DNA of 36,511 nt from a virus, in the IMG/VR virus record IMGVR_UViG_3300009011_000032, positions 1-36,511 of that record, one strand, 5' to 3'. The position numbers and the translations under genes were made by a program. The notes beneath the pieces are model-generated. The model did no database searches. It was not told the origin of the DNA and saw only the letters and a program-made list of their open reading frames with translations. Positions 23,562 through 36,511 of this stretch are shown one piece after another; position 1 is the first letter of the stretch; the number at the start of each line of letters is the position of its first letter.

Positions 23562-24110
23562 CTATGGAGCGTCGATGTTGCTCACATGTCGCATAATCAC
23601 CCGACGAACGGTTTGCTCACGTACCCGCCCCGCCCTTGCTGCCAAGATGGCAAAGACCTGCAAGTGCAGGGCCTTGACCCAGTTCCGGTAGGTTCGGTCG
23701 GCGTCCTCCGCCAGCCCAACTTCGCGCATCTGCTCCCGCACCGTTGCCCCATGTAGATAGCGAAGGTGTGCCAGCTTGGCCAGGGTTGCCCCTCGTACAT
23801 CACGCCGCTCCAGCTGGACTACCGCTGCGTCGACTTCTGCTGCCGCGTGATCAAGACCAGCACCACCGACCAAGATGCGCGACCCTGACGATCCACCACG
23901 CGGTGCAGCGCCCTTCCATTCCATGATGCTGCCCATCTGGCTACCAAGGCTGGCTTCCAGCCCAAGCTGTGCTCGGCGCTCCCCCCAATGCTTCATCAGC
24001 TCTCCGATCAGGCGCAGGCGCTCGGCTTGATCGATGAGCTGCGCCATTTCGACCTGGTGAAGCATGAGCTGCACCTGGCTTTGCATGCGCAATTCCAGAT
24101 CTTTCGTCAT
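23562..24110 (-). CDS. probable late antiterminator, Q-like
   Basis: A 182-residue protein with start chosen at the ATG 24110, which has GGAGGGCGGGCA upstream and overlaps the previous stop (ATGA). The N-terminal part is helical (MTKDLELRMQSQVQLMLHQV). The C-terminal part, VDAAVVQLERRDVRGATLAK and then LRYLHGATVREQMREVGLAE, resembles the sigma-region-4-like helix-turn-helix of phage antitermination Q proteins. Position supports that reading: it is the last gene before two terminators and the late operon. No direct assignment to a named Q family is possible by eye, and a plain DNA-binding regulator is the alternative. Confidence 0.6.
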   Translation of the reverse strand: MTKDLELRMQSQVQLMLHQVEMAQLIDQAERLRLIGELMKHWGERRAQLGLEASLGSQMGSIMEWKGAAPRGGSSGSRILVGGAGLDHAAAEVDAAVVQLERRDVRGATLAKLAHLRYLHGATVREQMREVGLAEDADRTYRNWVKALHLQVFAILAARAGRVREQTVRRVIMRHVSNIDAP

Positions 24111-24439
24111 TGCCCGCCCTCCCCAAGCAGTACCCAACACATATTTAGCCAACCGAACACAAACCCAACACACTCGAAACCCAATAAATTCAATGGATTA
24201 GATCCATCCGTGTTGAGTGTGTTGGGTGTGTTGGGTTTTTCAGGGTTCACATAGAGATTTCTTACCCCCTCGATAACGCTGGTAGAAAAAAATCGCGTGC
24301 GCGCGCGCGTGCGAAAACCCAACACACCCAACACACACTCCCGCGACGCCAAAAAATCCGGGGCTTTGAATTGTGTTGGCTTGCAGGAATCAACCCAACA
24401 CCAACCCAACACACCCAACACACTTACCGGAGTAGTCAT
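24107..24439 (-). CDS. iteron-encoded ORF, coupled at both ends
   Basis: A 110-residue frame starts at an ATG overlapping the primase/helicase stop (ATGA at 24436-24439) and stops in an ATGA overlap with the Q-like start (24107-24110). The product starts MTTPVSVLGVLGWCW. Because the origin iterons are 9 bases long, each one reads as VLG in one orientation and PNT in the other (VLGVLG twice, PNTPNT once). The middle encodes an Arg-rich TRARTR stretch from alternating GC sequence. No known fold is seen. It may exist to carry ribosomes through the origin and couple Q translation to Rep, or to encode a small protein. Confidence 0.5.
   Translation of the reverse strand: MTTPVSVLGVLGWCWVDSCKPTQFKAPDFLASRECVLGVLGFRTRARTRFFSTSVIEGVRNLYVNPEKPNTPNTLNTDGSNPLNLLGFECVGFVFGWLNMCWVLLGEGGQ
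24133..24422. other. presumed replication origin with 9-bp iterons
   Basis: CCCAACACA occurs exactly at 24133, 24164, 24318, 24327, 24405 and 24414, and its complement TGTGTTGGG at 24218 and 24227. One-mismatch copies start at 24153, 24372 and 24394, and a two-mismatch copy at 24209. Tandem pairs abut without spacer. Between the opposing clusters lie an AT-rich stretch (around 24285-24292), a perfect ATGGAT-TAG-ATCCAT repeat (24193-24207) and 20 bases of strictly alternating purine-pyrimidine sequence (24294-24313). Iterons directly after a primase/helicase gene are the plan of P4-type and similar phage origins. Confidence 0.75.
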
Positions 24440-27189
24440 GCTGCAAGCCTCTTGATGTGGTCCCAACCTTCCACGCTCCATCCCGCTAGCTTCGCTCGAG
24501 CACGCCACTCGACGACGTTCTTGCCCAGCTCGGCCGACTTCATGGATGGGGGCAGGGAAGGATCACCATCACTGGGGAAGAAGAACGCTGCGAAACGTCG
24601 CGCACTGCCATCCGTCCAGGGGATAGCGCGTGTCTTCTCCACCTTCGCACTGAGCATCAGCGAGAACTTGGTGTGGCTCATTGCGTTCTCTTTGTTGTGA
24701 GAGCACCACTCAAGGAACATGGCGTACACGTCCGAAGTCAGGCAGCAGCCCCATAGGCCGTGGCCTAGCTCGCCCGCTCGCCAGAGATAGAAGAAGGTTT
24801 GCCAGGCAGTGCGGCTCAGCTCAACCAATCGCTGACGGGCCTCTGTTTTGGGCGGGCGTGTGCGCTGGTTAAAGTCACCGAGGTCCACGTCCAGCAGCCA
24901 GCCGTAGAGGGCTGCTACCCCGCCGTTGGCCAGCTCTCTCGCAATCGCCTTCTGCCGCTCAGCAGGCAAGGTCTCCAGCGGCCACATCACCAGCATTCGG
25001 CGATCATCTTCGCTGATCGGCCACGGCATGATCTCGTTGCTCAGAAACGCCGAGTTCATGTGGTTGGCCTCCTCCCAACCGTTGATGAACTTCGACTCCA
25101 TTCGGACCGTCTTGCCGGTGATCATGTGCTTGATCTTGCCGACCTGGTTGTAGCGTTGGTCGCGGCTAACGACTTCTTCGAAGACGGCCCACAGCTTCCC
25201 GCTCTGCCAGGCGTTGAAGTTGCCTTCCAACTGCGTCTGCCCAACCGTGGCACCGTAACGACCGTAGAGCTCCCCCATGATGTCCGCGAACAGCAGGCTC
25301 TTGCCCGAGCCTTCCATGGTGGAATGGAACAGGATCGCGGTATCCATCTTCGCCCCCATGTTCTGCAGCGGATAGGCGAGCCAGTTCACCAGCCACTCCA
25401 GCGCCTCAGCGTCATGGTTGCAGAGGAACGAGATCAGCCAGCGCAAGTTCTCACAGGCGGCGTCATCCCGCACCGGCTGATGGGGTAAGCCCTCGAAGGT
25501 GTTGATGTAGATAGCTGGGTCTTTGGTCATCGTCGGGTCGAACACGATATGGTCGACATCAACCACTCGGCGATTCGGGCTGTTCAGCCAGAGTTGATAG
25601 GCATCGCCCAGGGCCATCTTGACGCTGCCCTCGGGTAGACGACGCTTCTTCTCCCGGTCCCAAGCTTCTTTGGTGCCGTCGATGTAGACATACCGATCCA
25701 GTGGGTCGAGATTCAGCGCCCCGCCCTTCTTGCTCGACATCTTGCGGCCCTGTTCGAGCTCCTTGACCTGCTCGGCGGAGACCAGCTTCTTGTCAGTCCT
25801 CTCCATCCATTGTTTCGCGAGGGGCTTGCCGACCAGCGCCTCAAAGCCTGATCGCTTCATCGACTGCCCTTTGTCCATGTCCCACACATTCGTGGTGCCT
25901 TCGACCAGGGCGAATCGACGCATAGCACTCTTCAGTACCAGGCCCTCTCCCCCTGCCCCCCCATCGGCCGAGGAGCAGGCCGAGCTGGCAACGGTCGGAA
26001 CGCTGGTGTCAGGCTGGACAGCTGCATCAACAGCGGTTTCGTCGTGCCCGGCCTGCTCGACCATCGATGGGGCAAGGGGAAGTTCGCCCAGCGGCGGCGG
26101 CGCTGGCGGGCGTGACTTGGCGTCGATGCCGAGAATCTGCGCAGCCGCCCTGGTCGCTGCACGCTGGTCACCGTTGTGCACCAAGATGCAGAAGACGTCG
26201 AATGCATCGTTTTGGTGGCCGTTGGCCAGTGGGTCCGAGGTGTGGTGCGAGTAGAGTTTGTCATCCGTGATGCTCACGCCCGGCAGCCCCGAGCTGCTTT
26301 GCGGGCACAACCACTTCCCGCCCACACGCTTATAGCCATGCGCCTCAATGATCGTGGCAATGTCATGGCGGCGGTTGAACTCGGGGATCACCTCTGGCAG
26401 TGAGTCGCCCGATCGGGCGACTACGGGCCTCGGCATGGTGACTGGTCGAGCCGACGTGACCTGCTTAGGTCGCCACGGGCAAAGCGCCTCTCCTGTCGGC
26501 TTGAAGTCTTCCCACCCCTGCCAGACAGCCAGCAGCTCAGGAGGCAGCTCAGGGAGGCCCTTTGCATCAGGTGCATTTCGCCACGTGTACGGCTTACCGG
26601 TGCTAGGGTGGATGGATGGCGGCAGCACGTCCTGCACCAGGCCCGCGCGCAACTCGAACACCGTGAGCTTCTTGAACGGATCAGCAGCCAAGCGGAAAGC
26701 GGCCTCACGGCCCGCGTCCTTCTGTTCAATAGCGGCCCTTACTTGAACCATGAGCCCCTTATGGATAGTGCCATCGGGGTCATTTTGATTTGGCCACACC
26801 AATGCGTGTTTCTTCAGTTCCACGCCCTCGGGGACGCGGAACATGATGCGGAAGCGCGCGGGATTGCCCACCGATGTCGGGTAGGCAGCAGCGAGCGCAT
26901 CGATGTCGAGGCCATGCGTCTGCTGCAAAACCAACCGCGTAAACTCGACATCATCCACATCCAGCGAGCAGACATTACTTGGCCCAAGCACAACACCAAG
27001 GTTGTGGCTCGGGTTAGCCTTCCAGAACTGATCGGCACTCGCGGTATCAGTGAAGTAGCCACCAGGCCTGTTCCAGCCGTCACCCGTCGGCCCCTTTTTG
27101 CCCGGCTCGATGGGGACCAGGGCAAGACCGAAGGTTTCAATGTAACGCCGCGCCCAATCAGCTGTGGTAGTAGTTGGGCGCTCGCTCAT
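24436..27189 (-). CDS. bifunctional primase / SF3 helicase replication protein
   Basis: A 917-residue protein with start chosen at the ATG 27189 (MSERPTTTTADWARRYIETF), which overlaps the previous stop (ATGA). Domains in order: an N-terminal prim-pol-like primase (residues about 5-230) with the metal-binding LDVDD near 100; a middle segment with GYKRVGGKWLCPQSSSG; an acidic, Ala/Pro-rich linker near 380-440; and a C-terminal D5/DUF5906-type superfamily 3 helicase. The helicase has Walker A EGSGKS near 628, a Walker B-like LWAVFEEV and sensor AFLSNE. It should bind the iterons next to its gene, open the origin, unwind and prime. The P4 alpha protein has the same primase-helicase-origin-binding logic. 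Confidence 0.9.
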   Translation of the reverse strand: MSERPTTTTADWARRYIETFGLALVPIEPGKKGPTGDGWNRPGGYFTDTASADQFWKANPSHNLGVVLGPSNVCSLDVDDVEFTRLVLQQTHGLDIDALAAAYPTSVGNPARFRIMFRVPEGVELKKHALVWPNQNDPDGTIHKGLMVQVRAAIEQKDAGREAAFRLAADPFKKLTVFELRAGLVQDVLPPSIHPSTGKPYTWRNAPDAKGLPELPPELLAVWQGWEDFKPTGEALCPWRPKQVTSARPVTMPRPVVARSGDSLPEVIPEFNRRHDIATIIEAHGYKRVGGKWLCPQSSSGLPGVSITDDKLYSHHTSDPLANGHQNDAFDVFCILVHNGDQRAATRAAAQILGIDAKSRPPAPPPLGELPLAPSMVEQAGHDETAVDAAVQPDTSVPTVASSACSSADGGAGGEGLVLKSAMRRFALVEGTTNVWDMDKGQSMKRSGFEALVGKPLAKQWMERTDKKLVSAEQVKELEQGRKMSSKKGGALNLDPLDRYVYIDGTKEAWDREKKRRLPEGSVKMALGDAYQLWLNSPNRRVVDVDHIVFDPTMTKDPAIYINTFEGLPHQPVRDDAACENLRWLISFLCNHDAEALEWLVNWLAYPLQNMGAKMDTAILFHSTMEGSGKSLLFADIMGELYGRYGATVGQTQLEGNFNAWQSGKLWAVFEEVVSRDQRYNQVGKIKHMITGKTVRMESKFINGWEEANHMNSAFLSNEIMPWPISEDDRRMLVMWPLETLPAERQKAIARELANGGVAALYGWLLDVDLGDFNQRTRPPKTEARQRLVELSRTAWQTFFYLWRAGELGHGLWGCCLTSDVYAMFLEWCSHNKENAMSHTKFSLMLSAKVEKTRAIPWTDGSARRFAAFFFPSDGDPSLPPSMKSAELGKNVVEWRARAKLAGWSVEGWDHIKRLAA

Positions 27190-27398
27190 CTGCGGCGCTC
27201 CCGCAGCTCTTGGCAACTGATGCAGGTTTCGCAGCCCTGTACCAGTTGCTGCCGCTTCAGTGGGATGGCTTCACCACAGTCATCACAGAACTGGGCGCTT
27301 GGCTTAACGGGGCGGTTCGCATGCCGCCGAAGCGCAGCCTGCAGCAAGTACTCGGTCTGTTCGCTGGCCATGTCCAACGGATCGGGAATGTTAGCCAT
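27186..27398 (-). CDS. TraR/DksA-type C4 zinc-finger protein
   Basis: A 70-residue protein when started at ATG 27398 (MANIPDPLDMASEQTEYLLQ). It has an N-terminal helix and a C4 zinc finger CDDC-(17)-CISC near residues 37-61, which is the TraR/DksA short form. Phage members can bind RNA polymerase through the secondary channel and shift transcription. The gene overlaps the CII-like gene by 8 bases and the primase start by 4, so all three are translated together. Confidence 0.85.
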   Translation of the reverse strand: MANIPDPLDMASEQTEYLLQAALRRHANRPVKPSAQFCDDCGEAIPLKRQQLVQGCETCISCQELRERRR

Positions 27399-27879
27399 TG
27401 CAACGATCCTCCATCGCCTGGCGCGCACCAGCCATGATGGAAAGCACCTGGCGGATAACATCCATCCCCCGTTGCTCCAGGTCCAGAACCTCTGCCGGAG
27501 TCCAGACGTTGTCGGAGGCCCCGTCGTGCAGACTACCTACGAACTCACCCGACTCCTCAAGGAGCTTGGCGACCGCCTTCAGTGCATCATTCGTCGCCGG
27601 TACCGGCTCAGGGCGATACCACACGGCTCCTGCCGGACGAACCAAGGCGTCGAGCAGGCGCGGATCCGCGGTCCACTGCACGATCTCTTCCAGCTCATCA
27701 GGGGTTGGCCAGCGGCGCTCTTCGTTGTGGTGAAGCTTCTTCTGCAGGGTATCCACCTCAAGCCCCATGTCGAAGGCCAGCTTGGTGATACCACCGCGAT
27801 AATCACGACCTGCGCGATAAAGCGCCTGCCGCAAGGTGAGGACCGGGCCAGCGCCCGGCAATAGATCGATGCGACTCAT
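27391..27879 (-). CDS. phage regulatory CII-family (CP76) protein
   Basis: A 162-residue protein recognised as the CII-like phage regulatory family. The N-terminal half is a helix-turn-helix region (LTLRQALYRAGRDYRGGITK followed by LAFDMGLEVDTLQKKLHHNE) and the C-terminal half is a helical oligomerisation region. It follows Cro as lambda cII does and probably controls lysogeny or integrase promoters. The ATG at 27879 lies directly after an 8-bp hairpin that holds the GAGG ribosome site in its loop, which could regulate translation. Confidence 0.82.
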   Translation of the reverse strand: MSRIDLLPGAGPVLTLRQALYRAGRDYRGGITKLAFDMGLEVDTLQKKLHHNEERRWPTPDELEEIVQWTADPRLLDALVRPAGAVWYRPEPVPATNDALKAVAKLLEESGEFVGSLHDGASDNVWTPAEVLDLEQRGMDVIRQVLSIMAGARQAMEDRCNG

Positions 27880-30677: not shown

Positions 30678-31027
30678 CCACCGTTATCCAACGAAGCTGC
30701 CTCGTTGATGGCCGCATAACTACGTACAAGCATCTCTGGGAAACGGTGGACCCTTACGACGGCGGTTATCACATCTGTAAGAAGTGCAAACTCGGCTCTC
30801 AAGGCGAGCGCCTTGCGACACCTTGCCCCGTATCCGACGCCGAGTATCACGCCGTCGCGTGGCTCGGCCAGGCCGGGCTGTACCGAACTCGGTTTGAGGC
30901 CGTGCGTAATTGTGAGCAAGCAATTACGCCAGTTTCAACTAATGAGCTGTTCGAGCTTGCCTGGAAACAGATAGTTTGCCAGCTCAATGCGGGCGGACAA
31001 ACTGCCCAACCTGCGGAGAAGATATGA
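30674..31027 (+). CDS. small early protein with CxxC pair, unknown
   Basis: A 117-residue protein starting MTTVIQRSCLVDGRITTYKH, with a CKKC pair near residue 36 that could form a half zinc site and three further cysteines. The C-terminal part (STNELFELAWKQIVCQLNAG) is helical. Start and stop both overlap neighbours: ATGA at 30674, and the stop TGA shares bases with the methyltransferase ATG at 31024. I do not recognise the family. Confidence 0.65.
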   Translation: MTTVIQRSCLVDGRITTYKHLWETVDPYDGGYHICKKCKLGSQGERLATPCPVSDAEYHAVAWLGQAGLYRTRFEAVRNCEQAITPVSTNELFELAWKQIVCQLNAGGQTAQPAEKI

Positions 31028-31794
31028 ATGAGCTGGCTCTTTTCGCAGGTGCTGGTGGAGGAGTTCTTGCCGGGCACATTTTGGGATGGCGCACCATCTG
31101 CGCAGTTGAACGTGATGCCTACGCTGCACAAGTTCTGGCGCAACGACAGAACGATGGAGTTCTTCCGCCTTTCCCAATTTGGTCTGACGTGCGCAGTTTT
31201 GACGGCAGCCGCTGGAGAGGCCTTATTGATGTCATTTCTGGCGGCTTTCCGTGCCAAGACATTTCCTGTGCCGGCCCTGGTACTGGAATCCAAGGCTCTC
31301 GCTCTGGACTCTGGAAAGACATGGCTCGAATTATCAGCGAAGTACTGCCCGAAGAGGTCTTCCTGGAGAACTCACCAATGCTTGTGGGCCGAGGACTTGC
31401 ACTGGTCGTCAGTGAGCTTGCCGAAATGGGGTATGACACGGAGTGGTGTGTTGTATCAGCGGCGGATCTCGGAGCGCCCCATAGACGTGAACGTATTTGG
31501 CTTCTCGGACGGAGAGCCGATGCAAGCGCCTCTCCAGCAGTGGCCCACTCCAGTCGCCAGCATGTCCAAAGGCTCTTCACCCAACGCACTCGTACGCACC
31601 TCAGGGGCCAGTCGCTCAAGAGATCGATTGGACCATGCAGTGATGGCCCTTCACGGTGGCCACCTGAACCCGACTTGGGTCGAGTGGCTGATGGGGTGGC
31701 CTCTAGGGTGGACCGACTTAAAGCCCTTGGAAATGGCCAGGTTCCGCGAGTGGCAGCGGCAGCATTCCACGGTTTGGAGTCAGGGCAATGGTGA
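31024..31794 (+). CDS. orphan phage C5-cytosine DNA methyltransferase
   Basis: A 256-residue methyltransferase that transfers a methyl group from S-adenosylmethionine to C5 of cytosine, probably protecting phage DNA against host restriction. Motif I FAGAGGG is at 7-13, the catalytic PCQD at 76-79 (Cys77), ENS at 115-117 (motif VI), RRERIW at 154-159 (motif VIII), and GRVADGVASRVDRLKALGNG at about 217-236 (motifs IX/X). The target-recognition region between VIII and IX is short. It has no restriction partner beside it. The coding region is shared along its full length with another open frame (31028-31807). Confidence 0.92.
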   Translation: MNELALFAGAGGGVLAGHILGWRTICAVERDAYAAQVLAQRQNDGVLPPFPIWSDVRSFDGSRWRGLIDVISGGFPCQDISCAGPGTGIQGSRSGLWKDMARIISEVLPEEVFLENSPMLVGRGLALVVSELAEMGYDTEWCVVSAADLGAPHRRERIWLLGRRADASASPAVAHSSRQHVQRLFTQRTRTHLRGQSLKRSIGPCSDGPSRWPPEPDLGRVADGVASRVDRLKALGNGQVPRVAAAAFHGLESGQW

Positions 31795-31807
31795 GGTGAT
31801 GTCATGA
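31028..31807 (+). CDS. overprinted ORF covering the methyltransferase gene
   Basis: A 259-codon frame, shifted +1 from the methyltransferase frame. It starts at an ATG immediately after the previous stop (TGA ATG) and ends in an ATGA overlap with the DUF4224 start at 31804. The product begins MSWLFSQVLVEEFLPGTFWD and has LAAFRAKT opposite the PCQD motif, RSSWRTHQCLWAEDL, SLPKWGMTRSGVLY, and ends with LNPTWVEWLMGWPLGWTDL. I recall annotated phage proteins with this same start and end as a family. Either both frames are translated or that family is a misread frame; the downstream ATGA coupling favours translation. Function unknown. Confidence 0.5.
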   Translation: MSWLFSQVLVEEFLPGTFWDGAPSAQLNVMPTLHKFWRNDRTMEFFRLSQFGLTCAVLTAAAGEALLMSFLAAFRAKTFPVPALVLESKALALDSGKTWLELSAKYCPKRSSWRTHQCLWAEDLHWSSVSLPKWGMTRSGVLYQRRISERPIDVNVFGFSDGEPMQAPLQQWPTPVASMSKGSSPNALVRTSGASRSRDRLDHAVMALHGGHLNPTWVEWLMGWPLGWTDLKPLEMARFREWQRQHSTVWSQGNGEVMS

Positions 31808-32094: not shown

Positions 32095-33162
32095 ATGCGC
32101 TTTAAGAAAGCAAACAATCGTGACTTACCACCGAGAATGTTACGGCGGGTCCGCACATTGAAAAGCGGAAAGAAATGGGTTGGCTATTACTATAACGGTC
32201 GTGACGAGAATGGTAAACGTATTGAAATTCCACTCGGCACCGATCTGGACATAGCAAAAAGCGAATGGGCCAAGCTTGATCGCAAAGAAGTTCCTAAAAT
32301 ATCTCGGCTGTTGGGAGACGTTTTTAACCGGTATGAGCGCGATGTGATTCCAGGAAAGATGCCACGAACGCAAAAGGACAATCTACTCTCGTTAAAACAG
32401 CTTCGAGCAGCATTTTGTGAGGCACCCATAGACGCAATTACACCTCAAATAATCGCTCAGTATCGCGACAAACGCTCTGGAAAGGTGCGAGCTAACCGTG
32501 AGATCTCCCTTCTCTCACATATATACAACATGGCCAGGGAATGGGGCATTACTGAAAAGGAGAACCCAGCGGCTGGTGTCCGTAAGAATAAGGAGCGCCC
32601 AAGAGACTTCTACGCAGGACCTGAGATATGGAATGCCGTGTATGAATGCGCTTCTGGAGAGCTGCGCGACGCCATGGACTTAGCCTATTTGACGGGACAA
32701 CGCCCTGCTGACGTACTATCAATGCGAGCCACCGACTGCGATGAGAAATACCTACAAGTTGCACAGCACAAAACCTCTAAGAAACTGCGAATTGTGCTTA
32801 AGTACGAAAACCAAGTGAATCAGTTGGGGCTGCTGGTAGATAAACTCATAAGTCAACGTAAGGAACGGGGGATTCGGAACCCCTTCCTGATCACGACTCA
32901 GGACGGCAGAGCCGTCACAGCCTCCATGTTAAGACTCCGTTTTGACGATGCAAGAAAGAATGCAATTCACAATGCCCTTAATAGACAAGATAGCATTTTG
33001 GCCGAACAGATTCGCCAGTTCCAGTTTAGGGACATCCGCCCAAAAGCAGCAAGCGAAATAGGAGATCTTAATCACGCAAGCCGCCTACTCGGCCACACTG
33101 ACAAACGTATAACCGAAACAGTTTATCGTCGGGTTGGAGAAATAGTGCAACCGACGCGATAG
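32095..33162 (+). CDS. int: tyrosine integrase, lambda-type
   Basis: A 355-residue site-specific recombinase. Residues 10-65 form an arm-binding domain (GKKWVGYYYNGRDENGKRIE), 70-165 the core-binding domain, and 170-355 the catalytic domain with Arg203 (GQRPADVL), a Lys near 226-229, RDIR at 312-315 where many enzymes have HxxR, His334 (LLGHTDK) and Tyr344 (ETVYRR). It should integrate the phage at the tRNA-Ser gene near 36.4 kb. Base composition is lower in GC than the late genes. It converges with the HEPN gene, whose stop is 11 bases away. Confidence 0.94.
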   Translation: MRFKKANNRDLPPRMLRRVRTLKSGKKWVGYYYNGRDENGKRIEIPLGTDLDIAKSEWAKLDRKEVPKISRLLGDVFNRYERDVIPGKMPRTQKDNLLSLKQLRAAFCEAPIDAITPQIIAQYRDKRSGKVRANREISLLSHIYNMAREWGITEKENPAAGVRKNKERPRDFYAGPEIWNAVYECASGELRDAMDLAYLTGQRPADVLSMRATDCDEKYLQVAQHKTSKKLRIVLKYENQVNQLGLLVDKLISQRKERGIRNPFLITTQDGRAVTASMLRLRFDDARKNAIHNALNRQDSILAEQIRQFQFRDIRPKAASEIGDLNHASRLLGHTDKRITETVYRRVGEIVQPTR

Positions 33163-33173
33163 AAAAAACGCTT

Positions 33174-33848
33174 TTATATAGCCATGGAGTATCGAGAGTG
33201 CGCCAAGTAATCCGTTACGTTAACTACATACGTATCTAGGAAGGCAAACACCTTCTCCATGGCAGCTTTGAGTTCTGAAGGAGTCGCATCCTTCCCAACA
33301 TCAGAGAAAGACTTATTACCGTGAGCCAGCCAATTTCTATTATCTTTTACCCGCTTCAAATCCCGACCATCCGCGATGGTTTCAATTCCATATTTTCGAC
33401 ACACCGACCGGACGCCTTCAGCATCTAAATTTCCAGAGACCCCTGCAATAAAGTCCTGGAATACTGGACTGCTTTCGGTTTTACAAAGGCAATAAACCTC
33501 GTAAACCTTACTAATCAATGCATCTCGCGGCGTAGCAGTTATGGACTCATGATGCGACTGCCACCATATCTCCTGAAGTTTCTCATTGAGTTCCAAAAAT
33601 GAAAGCCCCTCATCACTAATCCTATTATAAATACTACGCACCCCCTCTCTAACAGTCGCCTCAACCAAATTATATAGAACAAGGTAGAAAGTCGCTTTTA
33701 ATGTAGTAGCCTCAAGCGCACTTACGTAATGCTGCTGACCATCATCATTAATGAGCCTCACATTATCGCCACTGACAAATGAAGCCAATGACAAATAAGA
33801 CTCTATTTCAAGCTTTCTTTTCCCATACTCCTCAAGAAAATGATTCAT
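33174..33848 (-). CDS. MAE_28990-type HEPN protein, putative ribonuclease
   Basis: A 224-residue all-helical protein. The conserved HEPN motif RNWLAH (Arg171-x4-His176), followed by GNKSFSDVG, marks the nuclease-type RxxxxH site; a helix with FYLVLYNLVEATVREGV (54-70) fits the first HEPN helix. I recognise it as the MAE_28990/MAE_18760 type. HEPN domains in defence systems cut RNA when activated. The ATG overlaps the DUF262 gene stop (ATGA), making it the third gene of the cassette. Sequence is AT-rich compared with the phage genes. Confidence 0.82.
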   Translation of the reverse strand: MNHFLEEYGKRKLEIESYLSLASFVSGDNVRLINDDGQQHYVSALEATTLKATFYLVLYNLVEATVREGVRSIYNRISDEGLSFLELNEKLQEIWWQSHHESITATPRDALISKVYEVYCLCKTESSPVFQDFIAGVSGNLDAEGVRSVCRKYGIETIADGRDLKRVKDNRNWLAHGNKSFSDVGKDATPSELKAAMEKVFAFLDTYVVNVTDYLAHSRYSMAI

Positions 33849-34894
33849 TGCATGACACCTGTCAATATAAAATCTTTGACAAATTCGATGCGCGCCCGCA
33901 ACCTTGGCCCAGAGTTACTACCGTGAGAAGTAGTAAGAATTGAAAACTTCTTACTTTCAGTTAGAATTTTACCCGAGACCCCTGTAACGTCGGGCTTTTC
34001 TCGCAACGCAAGATTGGAACCAATGGCAATCGCCTCAAAACGAACTCGCGGTGTAGACGTCGCTGTTAGTGACTTAGCAAACCCACCTTCAAATGAGCTT
34101 TCTACGAAGTCCAACATTTTCTTAAACCCGAGCCATAGCTGTTCCTCGCAGTAATCCGCCTTGTTCATTTCAACAAGATAGTCATTAAGGAAATCAGTTA
34201 CGCTGTGCTTGAACTCCCTGTATTTATCGCTATAAGCAAAATATCGCAAAACCAACTCTTCACGCTCACGGCGAGACTTAGAGCTTTCCGACATGGGACA
34301 AAGCTTGTTAAACTGCTCATCAACTGCACAGCGCTCCAAGAAGGTAGAAAATTTTCCGGAGTAGGCACCACGACGAATTTCAGACGCTTTTAGCTCCTGG
34401 CTCCCGGTGTTGATACGTTCAAACATATCAAGTCGTACACCAAGACTCACAGTAGAAGGAAGAACCACCATCCTCATAGTTCGATCAAGGAACTTATTTT
34501 GTTGCGAAGACGGAAGATCCTTGAAATAAAAACCGTCCAATAGATCTAATCGATCCAAGTCTTTGAGCTGGTGCTCATTATCTATGAATTGCTTGAGCGT
34601 CTGTATACGCTGCGCACCATCCAGAATTTCAACTGTTCCATCTTCGCACTGGACACCAAACATAAATGGGATGGGAAGCCCCATCAAAACAGATTCAATA
34701 AACTTGGTTTTTCGGTTTGAATGCCAAACAAAATTCCGTTGATATTGTGGAACAAACAGTTTCCCATCATTAAATCTTTTAACGATCACCTCAACGACAT
34801 ATTCCTTCGTATCGTAGGCGATAGTAGATTGAAAGCTCGAAATCTGCTCATCAACCAGCAGAAGACTTTCTTTCGTGATTTCAGTTTTCATCAT
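33845..34894 (-). CDS. DUF262 (ParB/GmrS-like) protein
   Basis: A 349-residue protein with the DUF262 signature: VPQYQRNFVW at 48-57, KFIESVLMGLPIPFMF at 64-79 and DGAQRIQTL at 92-100. DUF262 proteins such as GmrS have a ParB-like fold with NTPase and, with partner domains, nuclease action on modified DNA. No HNH-like DUF1524 domain is visible at the C-terminus, unlike GmrSD, so another gene may supply the effector. I choose ATG 34894, which shares one base with the methyltransferase TGA; a TTG one codon earlier is possible. Confidence 0.85.
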   Translation of the reverse strand: MMKTEITKESLLLVDEQISSFQSTIAYDTKEYVVEVIVKRFNDGKLFVPQYQRNFVWHSNRKTKFIESVLMGLPIPFMFGVQCEDGTVEILDGAQRIQTLKQFIDNEHQLKDLDRLDLLDGFYFKDLPSSQQNKFLDRTMRMVVLPSTVSLGVRLDMFERINTGSQELKASEIRRGAYSGKFSTFLERCAVDEQFNKLCPMSESSKSRREREELVLRYFAYSDKYREFKHSVTDFLNDYLVEMNKADYCEEQLWLGFKKMLDFVESSFEGGFAKSLTATSTPRVRFEAIAIGSNLALREKPDVTGVSGKILTESKKFSILTTSHGSNSGPRLRARIEFVKDFILTGVMQ

Positions 34895-35952
34895 CAACGT
34901 CCTTGCGCACTTAACACAAACCGTCTGGATAACGCCGGTGGCACTGCGTTTCCTATCATTTTTTGCAGACTGGTTCTTTTAGTGACACCAGAGTAATCAA
35001 GCCAATCTGGCAGCCCCTGTATTCTTGCCGCTTCATGGGGAGTAATCACCCGCGCTTCCAATGGATGAAGAAAGCGACCTTGCCCCATTGATCCAAAACC
35101 GCCTGTAATGGTCTGAGCAACGTCATCCCACTTTAATCTTCCATACATCGACTTGTAAGAGTGCTTACTTTGATGACACAATGGCCGCAATTCGTTTGGC
35201 AGATCGTAAGAATCGGTGGAGTACAAAAAGTCTGCACGCGCCTTATTTACTGCTGTCATGCTCGAAGGCGAATCGAATATATTTTCACTTCGCAACCCAA
35301 CCAAATCATGCAGCACATCCGAGAGCACGAACCTTTCATTAGTATAAATACTGCTAACTACCGAGTCCAAATCGTCGCTCAAACTTCCAAAAATCACATG
35401 CCGCTTACGCCCCTGAGGCACTCCCAGCATTTTAAAATCAATCACAGCTTCGACAACTTGGTAGCCGTGCTCAAGGAGGACTTCCCTAGATTTCTCAACT
35501 ACACTTTCTTTGGAGTGAACTACAGACGGGACATTTTCAATAATAAAGTATTTTGGCAAGCACAAACCTATGAACTTTATTGTCCTCAAATACAAAATGT
35601 TTCGTGGATCTTCTCTTCGACTATGATTATTAAGATTAGAATGCCCCTGACATGGCGGCCCCGCAAAAAGAAAGTCCGTCCCTTTAAGCCTATCGATGAC
35701 CCCTTGTTCGAAAGTAGTCTCAATCCGCGAAAAATCATCACCGATGATTTTTGAAATATCACCGTGACAATACTCTTTTAAATTTTTGGCAAAGTTTCTA
35801 TTGTAGAACTCCGAAGCAGCATCATCCATATCGCAAGCAAAACTAATTTCACAATCTACGTTTAAATCTGCTGCCGCCTGGAGAGCTCCAATCGTCAGCC
35901 CACCCATCCCGCAAAACAAATCTACAACCTTAATTGAATTGCCTATACTCAA
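34894..35952 (-). CDS. C5-cytosine DNA methyltransferase of three-gene defence cassette
   Basis: A 352-residue methyltransferase with all main motifs: DLFCGMGG (11-18), GPPCQG with Cys101, ENVPS (139-143), QGRKRHVIFG (180-189) and IGNAVPP (333-339). The segment AQTITGGFGSMGQGRFLHPL (279-298), then ITPHEAARIQGLPDWL, belongs to motif IX and the recognition end. The only start in frame before motif I is TTG at 35952; an in-frame stop lies just upstream. It is a different subfamily from the orphan enzyme at 31 kb. It should mark self DNA for the DUF262/HEPN pair encoded downstream. Confidence 0.9.
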   Translation of the reverse strand: MSIGNSIKVVDLFCGMGGLTIGALQAAADLNVDCEISFACDMDDAASEFYNRNFAKNLKEYCHGDISKIIGDDFSRIETTFEQGVIDRLKGTDFLFAGPPCQGHSNLNNHSRREDPRNILYLRTIKFIGLCLPKYFIIENVPSVVHSKESVVEKSREVLLEHGYQVVEAVIDFKMLGVPQGRKRHVIFGSLSDDLDSVVSSIYTNERFVLSDVLHDLVGLRSENIFDSPSSMTAVNKARADFLYSTDSYDLPNELRPLCHQSKHSYKSMYGRLKWDDVAQTITGGFGSMGQGRFLHPLEARVITPHEAARIQGLPDWLDYSGVTKRTSLQKMIGNAVPPALSRRFVLSAQGR

Positions 35953-36430: not shown

Positions 36431-36511
36431 TGGCGGAAGCGTAGAGATTCGAACTCTAGGATAGTTGCCCATCGACGGTTTTCAAGACCGTTGCCTTAAA
36501 CCACTCGGCCA
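36431..36511 (-). tRNA. tRNA-Ser(UGA), 5' end cut by window
   Basis: The minus strand reads TGGCCGAGTGG at the D arm, an anticodon stem-loop ACGGT-CTTGAAA-ACCGT with anticodon TGA at 36482-36484, a long class II variable arm, the T arm GTTCGAATC and the encoded CCA end at 36431. Only the first few acceptor bases are outside the window. tRNA-Ser genes are common prophage targets, and an integrase gene is the nearest recombinase, so the 3' part is the likely attachment core. Confidence 0.93.

Follow-up and report, generated by a model that had tools for sequence, protein, structure and literature searches.

Why should a likely replication origin be kept as an open reading frame whose start and stop codons overlap the genes on either side? 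The question is raised by a virus record of 36,511 bases, which was analysed over its whole length (hereafter the window) and whose close relatives are Pseudomonas prophages. In this record, an origin-like region filled with short repeats lies between the gene of a primase/helicase, referred to as Rep, and the gene of a protein resembling the antiterminator Q, and the same DNA forms a frame of 110 codons.

Layout of the origin-like region and its gene neighbourhood

The region is part of a run of overlapping genes on the minus strand. At the head of this run is the gene for a CII-like regulator (Phage_CP76; 27391-27879), followed with an overlap of 8 nt by a gene for a DksA/TraR-like zinc-finger protein (27186-27398), which in turn shares an ATGA with the Rep gene at 27189-27186. 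Rep (24436-27189) consists of 917 amino acids with the domains Prim-Pol (PF09250) and DUF5906 (PF19263) and is, judged from its sequence, likely to be the initiator that binds the origin. Its ATG at 27189 overlaps the upstream stop codon (ATGA), and the ORF listing extends to a TTG at 27216. The frame that holds the origin-like region (24107-24439, minus strand) runs from the ATG at 24439 to the TGA at 24107 and overlaps the stop codon of Rep by the ATGA at 24439-24436 and the start codon of the Q-like gene by the ATGA at 24110-24107. Thus, the uninterrupted frame with an ATGA overlap at both ends, which had been described in the original prediction, was borne out. Since the upstream genes are joined by the same type of overlap, the origin frame belongs to a series of five frames, each overlapping the next. 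The last of them encodes the Q-like protein (phrog_4300, 182 amino acids; 23562-24110, minus strand), whose model is most like the antiterminator Q of phage 21. The GGAGG Shine-Dalgarno-like site of this gene (24118-24122, minus strand) is located within the 3' end of the origin ORF.

The 9-bp iteron ACCCAACAC occurs in nine exact copies in the 36,511-base record, seven on the plus and two on the minus strand, all of them at 24132-24421, and the reversed pattern of ACCCAACAC, which served as a control, is absent from the record. With up to one mismatch, 12 copies are present at 24132-24421, eight of them pointing one way and four the other way, and three more lie elsewhere; whole-window shuffles contain on average 7.7 copies at this threshold. 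The earlier total of 12 iterons in both orientations therefore stands, but the division into eight exact and four near copies has to be corrected to nine and three. The first iterons follow about 15 bp past the Rep stop codon and comprise three exact copies (24393, 24404 and 24413; 24393-24421, plus strand). Further along in the ORF sense come a lone opposite iteron with one mismatch (24373-24381, minus strand), a tandem pair of exact iterons whose reading phase varies between lineages (24317-24334, plus strand), an alternating GC-rich near-palindrome (24293-24314) and three iterons in the opposite orientation (24210-24236, minus strand), of which the one at 24210 has one mismatch and those at 24219 and 24228 are exact. 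An AT-rich segment (24172-24208), a candidate unwinding element, separates the latter from the block that is the first in the window and the last in the ORF sense (24132-24171, plus strand; 24132 exact, 24152 with one mismatch, 24163 exact). Hence, the AT-rich segment is flanked by two iteron sets, and more sets lie beyond. The AT-rich and the alternating GC segments that had been noted before are indeed present, directly after the primase/helicase gene. This architecture leads us to infer an iteron origin here, served by the Prim-Pol/DUF5906 initiator Rep whose gene lies just upstream. Scans for promoters, terminators and Rfam families returned nothing at the origin region, the GC skew along the window showed no clear switch there, and no plasmid match was obtained for the 333-bp region.

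Elsewhere in the window, a low-GC (~0.43) island (33174-35952, minus strand) is located between the integrase gene (32095-33162, plus strand) and a tRNA gene (36434-36511, minus strand), which is likely the attachment tRNA. The island contains three overlapping ORFs for a HEPN protein (MAE_28990-like), a GmrSD_N/DUF262-like protein (PADLOC NsnA) and a C5 cytosine methyltransferase and looks like restriction or defence cargo. A second C5 methyltransferase-like ORF (PF00145) is found at 30976-31794 (plus strand); the frame 31028-31807, which overlaps it, resembles a methyltransferase on visual inspection as well, which suggests a frameshifted gene.

Conservation of the open frame in near relatives

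For the comparison with relatives, IMG/VR was scanned with Rep, and the best 80 of 383 loci were combined with three phage records and the window. Of these 84 loci, 79 unique intervals remained after the exclusion of two loci without the Rep end, one of insufficient length and two duplicates. Tests based on pN/pS, shuffling and simulation were confined to ungapped geometry groups (41 and 26-27 of the 79, and 31 of 67 in the S1-type family treated below), and frame-shifted loci were counted only in the tallies of open and closed frames. Iteron geometry was the sole criterion for the two ungapped groups used for shuffles and simulations, which comprise 41 and 27 loci; for pN/pS, codon-position and GC-by-offset measures the second one was taken without its closed locus, L060 (26 loci).

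The comparison of the open frame with the iterons, which had been proposed as a check, revealed that the iteron geometry is nearly fixed and that the frame is stop-free over its first 318 nt in 75 of the 79 unique intervals (from the best 80 of 383 loci, the phages and the window). The iteron offsets in the ORF are nearly constant across the 79 relatives, with forward copies at 18, 27, 38, 104/105, 113/114, 268, 279 and 299/300 and reverse copies at 58, 203, 212 and 221. The AT-rich segment corresponds to the ORF offsets 231-267, where the mean GC content is 0.30 and 0.27 in the two groups, and at the offsets matching the near-palindrome (124-150) it reaches 0.76 and 0.72. The other five frames are stop-free in 0, 1, 1, 3 and 0 of the 79 intervals and contain on average 2.2-5.1 stops. 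Of the four exceptions, L060 has the unshifted geometry and is interrupted by a stop at codon 82; the other three, L064, L066 and L071, are 1-2 nt shorter before the second half. When Rep is clustered at 90% nucleotide identity, all four fall into the same cluster out of 31, and each of the 31 clusters is mainly open. An independent scan of bacterial genomes yielded 68 loci, of which 57 carry at least six such iterons; 55 of these 57 are open over at least 105 codons. Moreover, 54 of the 57 host-genome loci are absent from the first set, and 53 of them are open.

In three of the 75 open loci (L041, L079 and L089), the origin frame and the Q-like gene form one continuous frame (291, 270 and 271 codons, respectively); an extension of the Q-like protein thus appears to be tolerated. 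In Pseudomonas phage Turba (L095), the frame is closed by an apparent homopolymer difference from phage Presto, and Rep is annotated as two genes; because the Rep gene is also split, sequencing frameshifts or assembly errors are possible in this record.

Selection on openness, start and stop

The openness of the frame clearly exceeds what base composition and iterons would provide. In frame 0, no stop was found among the 41 loci of the first group and one among the 27 loci of the second, while column shuffles predict 26.1 +/- 3.8 and 25.8 +/- 3.4 stops. Neutral simulation of the spacers along the tree left 2.4 +/- 2.5 of 41 and 1.7 +/- 2.2 of 27 loci open, compared with the observed 41 and 26, although the simulated spacer divergence was above the real one (0.50 vs 0.42 and 0.40 vs 0.33), which slightly favours the contrast.

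The two ends of the frame are also constrained. Rep ends with Ala-GCA in 130 of 134 loci, the remaining four ending with ACA, ACA, ACG and GTA. All 130 alanine endings thus use GCA, a codon that accounts for 9.5% of the 3480 alanine codons in Rep, which argues that the start codon of the origin frame is protected. At the penultimate position of Rep, GCA is found in 77 of 131 cases. The Q start was placed by the frame of the Q homolog, with eight loci left out (seven outside 100-130 codons and one without a Q homolog). It lies between -8 and +2 nt from the stop of the ORF in all 71 testable loci, in two relative frames, and is an ATG at -5 in four of them. The view that the origin-like region is constrained to stay translatable is therefore strongly supported, as openness far exceeds the neutral expectation, the start is protected, the stop is placed and no amino-acid selection was detected. 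Chance as the source of the open frame is excluded by the comparison with relatives.

The encoded peptide

The pN/pS of the spacers is 0.88 in the first group and 0.90 in the second. When nothing but stops was forbidden, simulation gave 0.87 +/- 0.11 and 0.87 +/- 0.07 with the transition bias set to 2 (0.97-0.98 at a bias of 1 and 0.76-0.80 at a bias of 4), and the same spacer DNA read in frames 1 and 2 gave 0.79-0.98. In identity bins of the same pairs, pN/pS is 0.72-1.06 for the spacers, 0.05-0.23 for Rep and 0.08-0.51 for the Q-like gene. Furthermore, the differences in the spacers are spread evenly over the codon positions (0.43, 0.41 and 0.42). The middle tandem iteron pair is shifted by 1-2 nt between lineages and reads VLGVLG, CWVCWV or CVGCVG, and the frame is restored before the next block. 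It had been proposed that the iteron reads VLG in one direction and PNT in the other; both exact reversed copies do encode PNT, but the exact copies in the ORF sense occur in three phases (VLG, CWV and CVG). AlphaFold modelling of the 110-residue product (29 sequences) gave a pLDDT of 39.9 and a pTM of 0.14, a low confidence that is not proof of disorder, and the protein of the window has no family in Pfam, NCBIfam or PHROGs.

Thus, the frame shares with ordinary genes a conserved start, stop and reading frame and lacks detectable purifying selection on its amino acids. The comparative pattern rather seems to be that of a relay or leader frame, in which openness is needed and the peptide is not. 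Taken together, the comparison supports selection for a stop-free frame that keeps its start codon and the place of its stop, and no selection was detected on the peptide. This suggests that in many Pseudomonas phages and prophages the passage of ribosomes over the origin matters more than its peptide.

A second family and lineages without an open frame

A similar arrangement is found in Stenotrophomonas phage S1. Its initiator is of the Toprim/DUF5906 type, with Toprim matches below the cut-offs of Pfam, and its iterons follow the pattern CCCGCACA. The gene of the terminase small subunit is preceded by an open frame of about 117 codons, which is annotated as gp2 and present in PHROGs as phrog_13749. 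A scan with the S1 initiator (best 80 of 272 loci) gave 67 usable unique intervals, and the frame is stop-free over the first 300 nt in 63 of them. The 31 ungapped intervals contain no stop, compared with 8.7 +/- 2.1 after shuffling, and all 31 are open, compared with 6.5 +/- 7.2 (maximum 25) in the neutral simulation. At a GC content of about 0.63, frames more easily stay open by chance, which makes this contrast less pronounced than in the family of the window. The pN/pS values are 0.62-0.91 for the spacers, 0.71-1.21 for the other frames and 0.04-0.13 for Rep; judged by the slightly lower spacer values of closer pairs (0.62-0.68), a weak constraint on the peptide may exist in this family. 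Although the primase domains of S1 (L100, Toprim-like) and the window (Prim-Pol) differ, both combine the DUF5906 helicase with an origin on the 3' side, as if helicase and origin travelled as one module.

Loci that keep the iterons but have stops in the frame, which the original prediction had named as the case that would speak against it, do occur. They comprise the four of the 79 near relatives, all in one cluster, and most distant relatives, which have other iterons. Among the Halomonas H4907-type loci, 6 of 23 are open and 17 lack an open frame; KT1 and Moraxella Mcat9 keep the iteron layout with stops in the frame, and the same holds for Azotobacter, Hahella, Oceanobacter, Marinobacter and others. 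With all families pooled, 201 of 241 unique intervals are open over at least 100 codons. Since both near and distant relatives keep iterons together with stops, openness is a property of lineages and not intrinsic to this type of origin, and the origin layout presumably works without an open frame. The stop content of the iteron was considered as a simple rule for openness and rejected: loci with the stop-free iteron TCCGACA/GTCGGAA (11 loci) are closed, and L261 is open although its iteron contains TGA.

Proposed translation across the origin and its alternatives

The reading that best fits these observations, to which we assign a probability of about 60%, is that of an initiator-type origin inside a blank reading frame, which relays ribosomes across the origin. 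Bound to the iterons, Rep would melt the AT-rich segment and load itself. Having finished Rep, ribosomes would reinitiate at the ATGA and travel over the origin RNA as far as the Q start, where they would stop. The reason for keeping the origin as a blank frame would be its position in an operon whose genes overlap (CII-like, DksA-like, Rep, origin frame and Q-like). Translation would most likely shield the long, structured origin transcript from polarity caused by Rho loading and mRNA decay, and the genes beyond the origin could then be expressed in step with Rep. The RNA of the origin region has a predicted stability of -136 kcal/mol and is more stable than shuffles (z -3.3). The ORF-sense strand is G-rich in the window (skew +0.24), with a C-rich, G-poor stretch of 70 nt only at 24195-24264, so a strong Rho site is not obvious. 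According to passages of one study, a trailing ribosome protects the RNA from Rho in bacteria with coupled transcription and translation (PMC13323073); this protection, together with the strongly structured transcript and its C-rich stretch, favours a relay of ribosomes. An alternative benefit would be the suppression of R-loops at the G-rich iterons, which would leave the same sequence signature. The more specific reason that had been suggested, a dependence of Q translation on Rep translation, is weakened because S1-type phages keep an open frame before the terminase small-subunit gene. Moreover, the idea that upstream RNA hides the ribosome-binding site of Q was not supported: 28 of 72 loci went in the expected direction, and the mean unpaired probability of the site was 0.37 in the native RNA vs 0.35 with a shuffled ORF.

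Several other explanations have to be weighed. The 110-residue product could be a functional small protein, its gene being merely overprinted by the origin. The conserved start, stop and length, the annotation of gp2 in S1 (phrog_13749) and the somewhat low pN/pS in closer S1-type pairs would fit such a gene, which we nevertheless consider quite improbable, as the spacer pN/pS equals that of the stop-only simulation and the control frames, one iteron block encodes three different hexapeptides, the AlphaFold model has low scores and the product of the window is without a family. Translation across the origin might instead regulate replication, by clearing Rep or RNA polymerase, preventing R-loops or timing the firing, more than it affects downstream expression. 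This is rather unlikely given that related origins presumably work without an open frame and that the sense strand of the S1 type is almost without G skew (0.007), even if the G-rich ORF-sense strand with many GGG runs in the window family, the independence of the open frame from the identity of the downstream gene and the stimulation of replication by transcription through the lambda origin, as described in passages of PMC3985674, point in its direction. Finally, it is hardly credible that the open frame is an incidental by-product of stop-free iterons and base composition. Column shuffles that keep both give 26 stops where 0 and 1 were seen, the spacers differ at about 33-42% of their sites without having gained stops, start and stop are both placed, and the TCCGACA/GTCGGAA family is closed in spite of its stop-free iteron. 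What agrees with this explanation is that the iteron of the window has no stop in any of the six tandem frames and that families with stop-bearing iterons are mostly closed.

Returning to the blank frame that relays ribosomes, we would give about even odds to a broader generalisation, namely that some genes form a class in which the product does not matter. The origin would have been moulded into a stop-free blank frame in at least two families, which differ in their iterons and downstream genes, and ribosome traffic over it would itself be the function, tying together the translation of the replication gene, the state of the origin and downstream expression. Such frames would separate 'translated' from 'protein-coding', as a conserved frame with neutral-looking amino acids is usually taken to be either a gene or noise. 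Their peptide being dispensable and their iterons movable, they would also provide a clean system for studying why ribosomes are required in bacteria on RNA spanning an origin. Furthermore, they call for caution in annotation: phrog_13749 may describe such a frame, and the origin frame is left blank, with no gene listed on it, in the eight phage records with annotation that belong to the window type.

Comparison with known systems

Phages N15 and P4 may offer parallels to the arrangement described here. The open-access literature that was searched contains no description of an open frame over a phage origin or of DUF5906 origins, which does not prove that none is in print. The Q-like protein finds its best structural match in the antiterminator Q of phage 21 (6p18, 6p1c and 6jny), which accounts for all seven top VIA rows; the match to 6p18 has a Z of 9.8 and an rmsd of 4.4 over 106 aligned residues. 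However, the identity is only about 12%, the Foldseek E value is 0.27, and with a mostly helical fold such a Z can be reached by chance. Because of the structural resemblance, it appears reasonable to give the downstream protein the provisional name Q-like.

The S1 gp2 frame resembles that of the window in its position, its overlapping start, its iteron-filled DNA and its openness. In contrast, it is annotated as an ordinary hypothetical protein, has another iteron, follows a Toprim instead of a Prim-Pol initiator and precedes a terminase instead of a Q-like gene. In the rep-ori module of SaPI/PICI elements, the origin lies directly 3' of the gene of the primase/helicase initiator, and two iteron sets flank an AT-rich region, as described in passages of two studies (PMC6092414, PMC7581432). 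Both features are found in the window; a conserved open frame over the origin is not mentioned in these passages. The origin of phage lambda is located in gene O, where the iterons lie in translated and transcribed DNA and transcription across the origin affects replication, according to passages of PMC3985674. In the window, the iterons are likewise predicted to lie in transcribed and translated DNA. However, the frame in lambda is that of the initiator O itself, whereas the iterons of the window lie past the Rep stop, in another and separate frame for which no amino-acid selection was detected.
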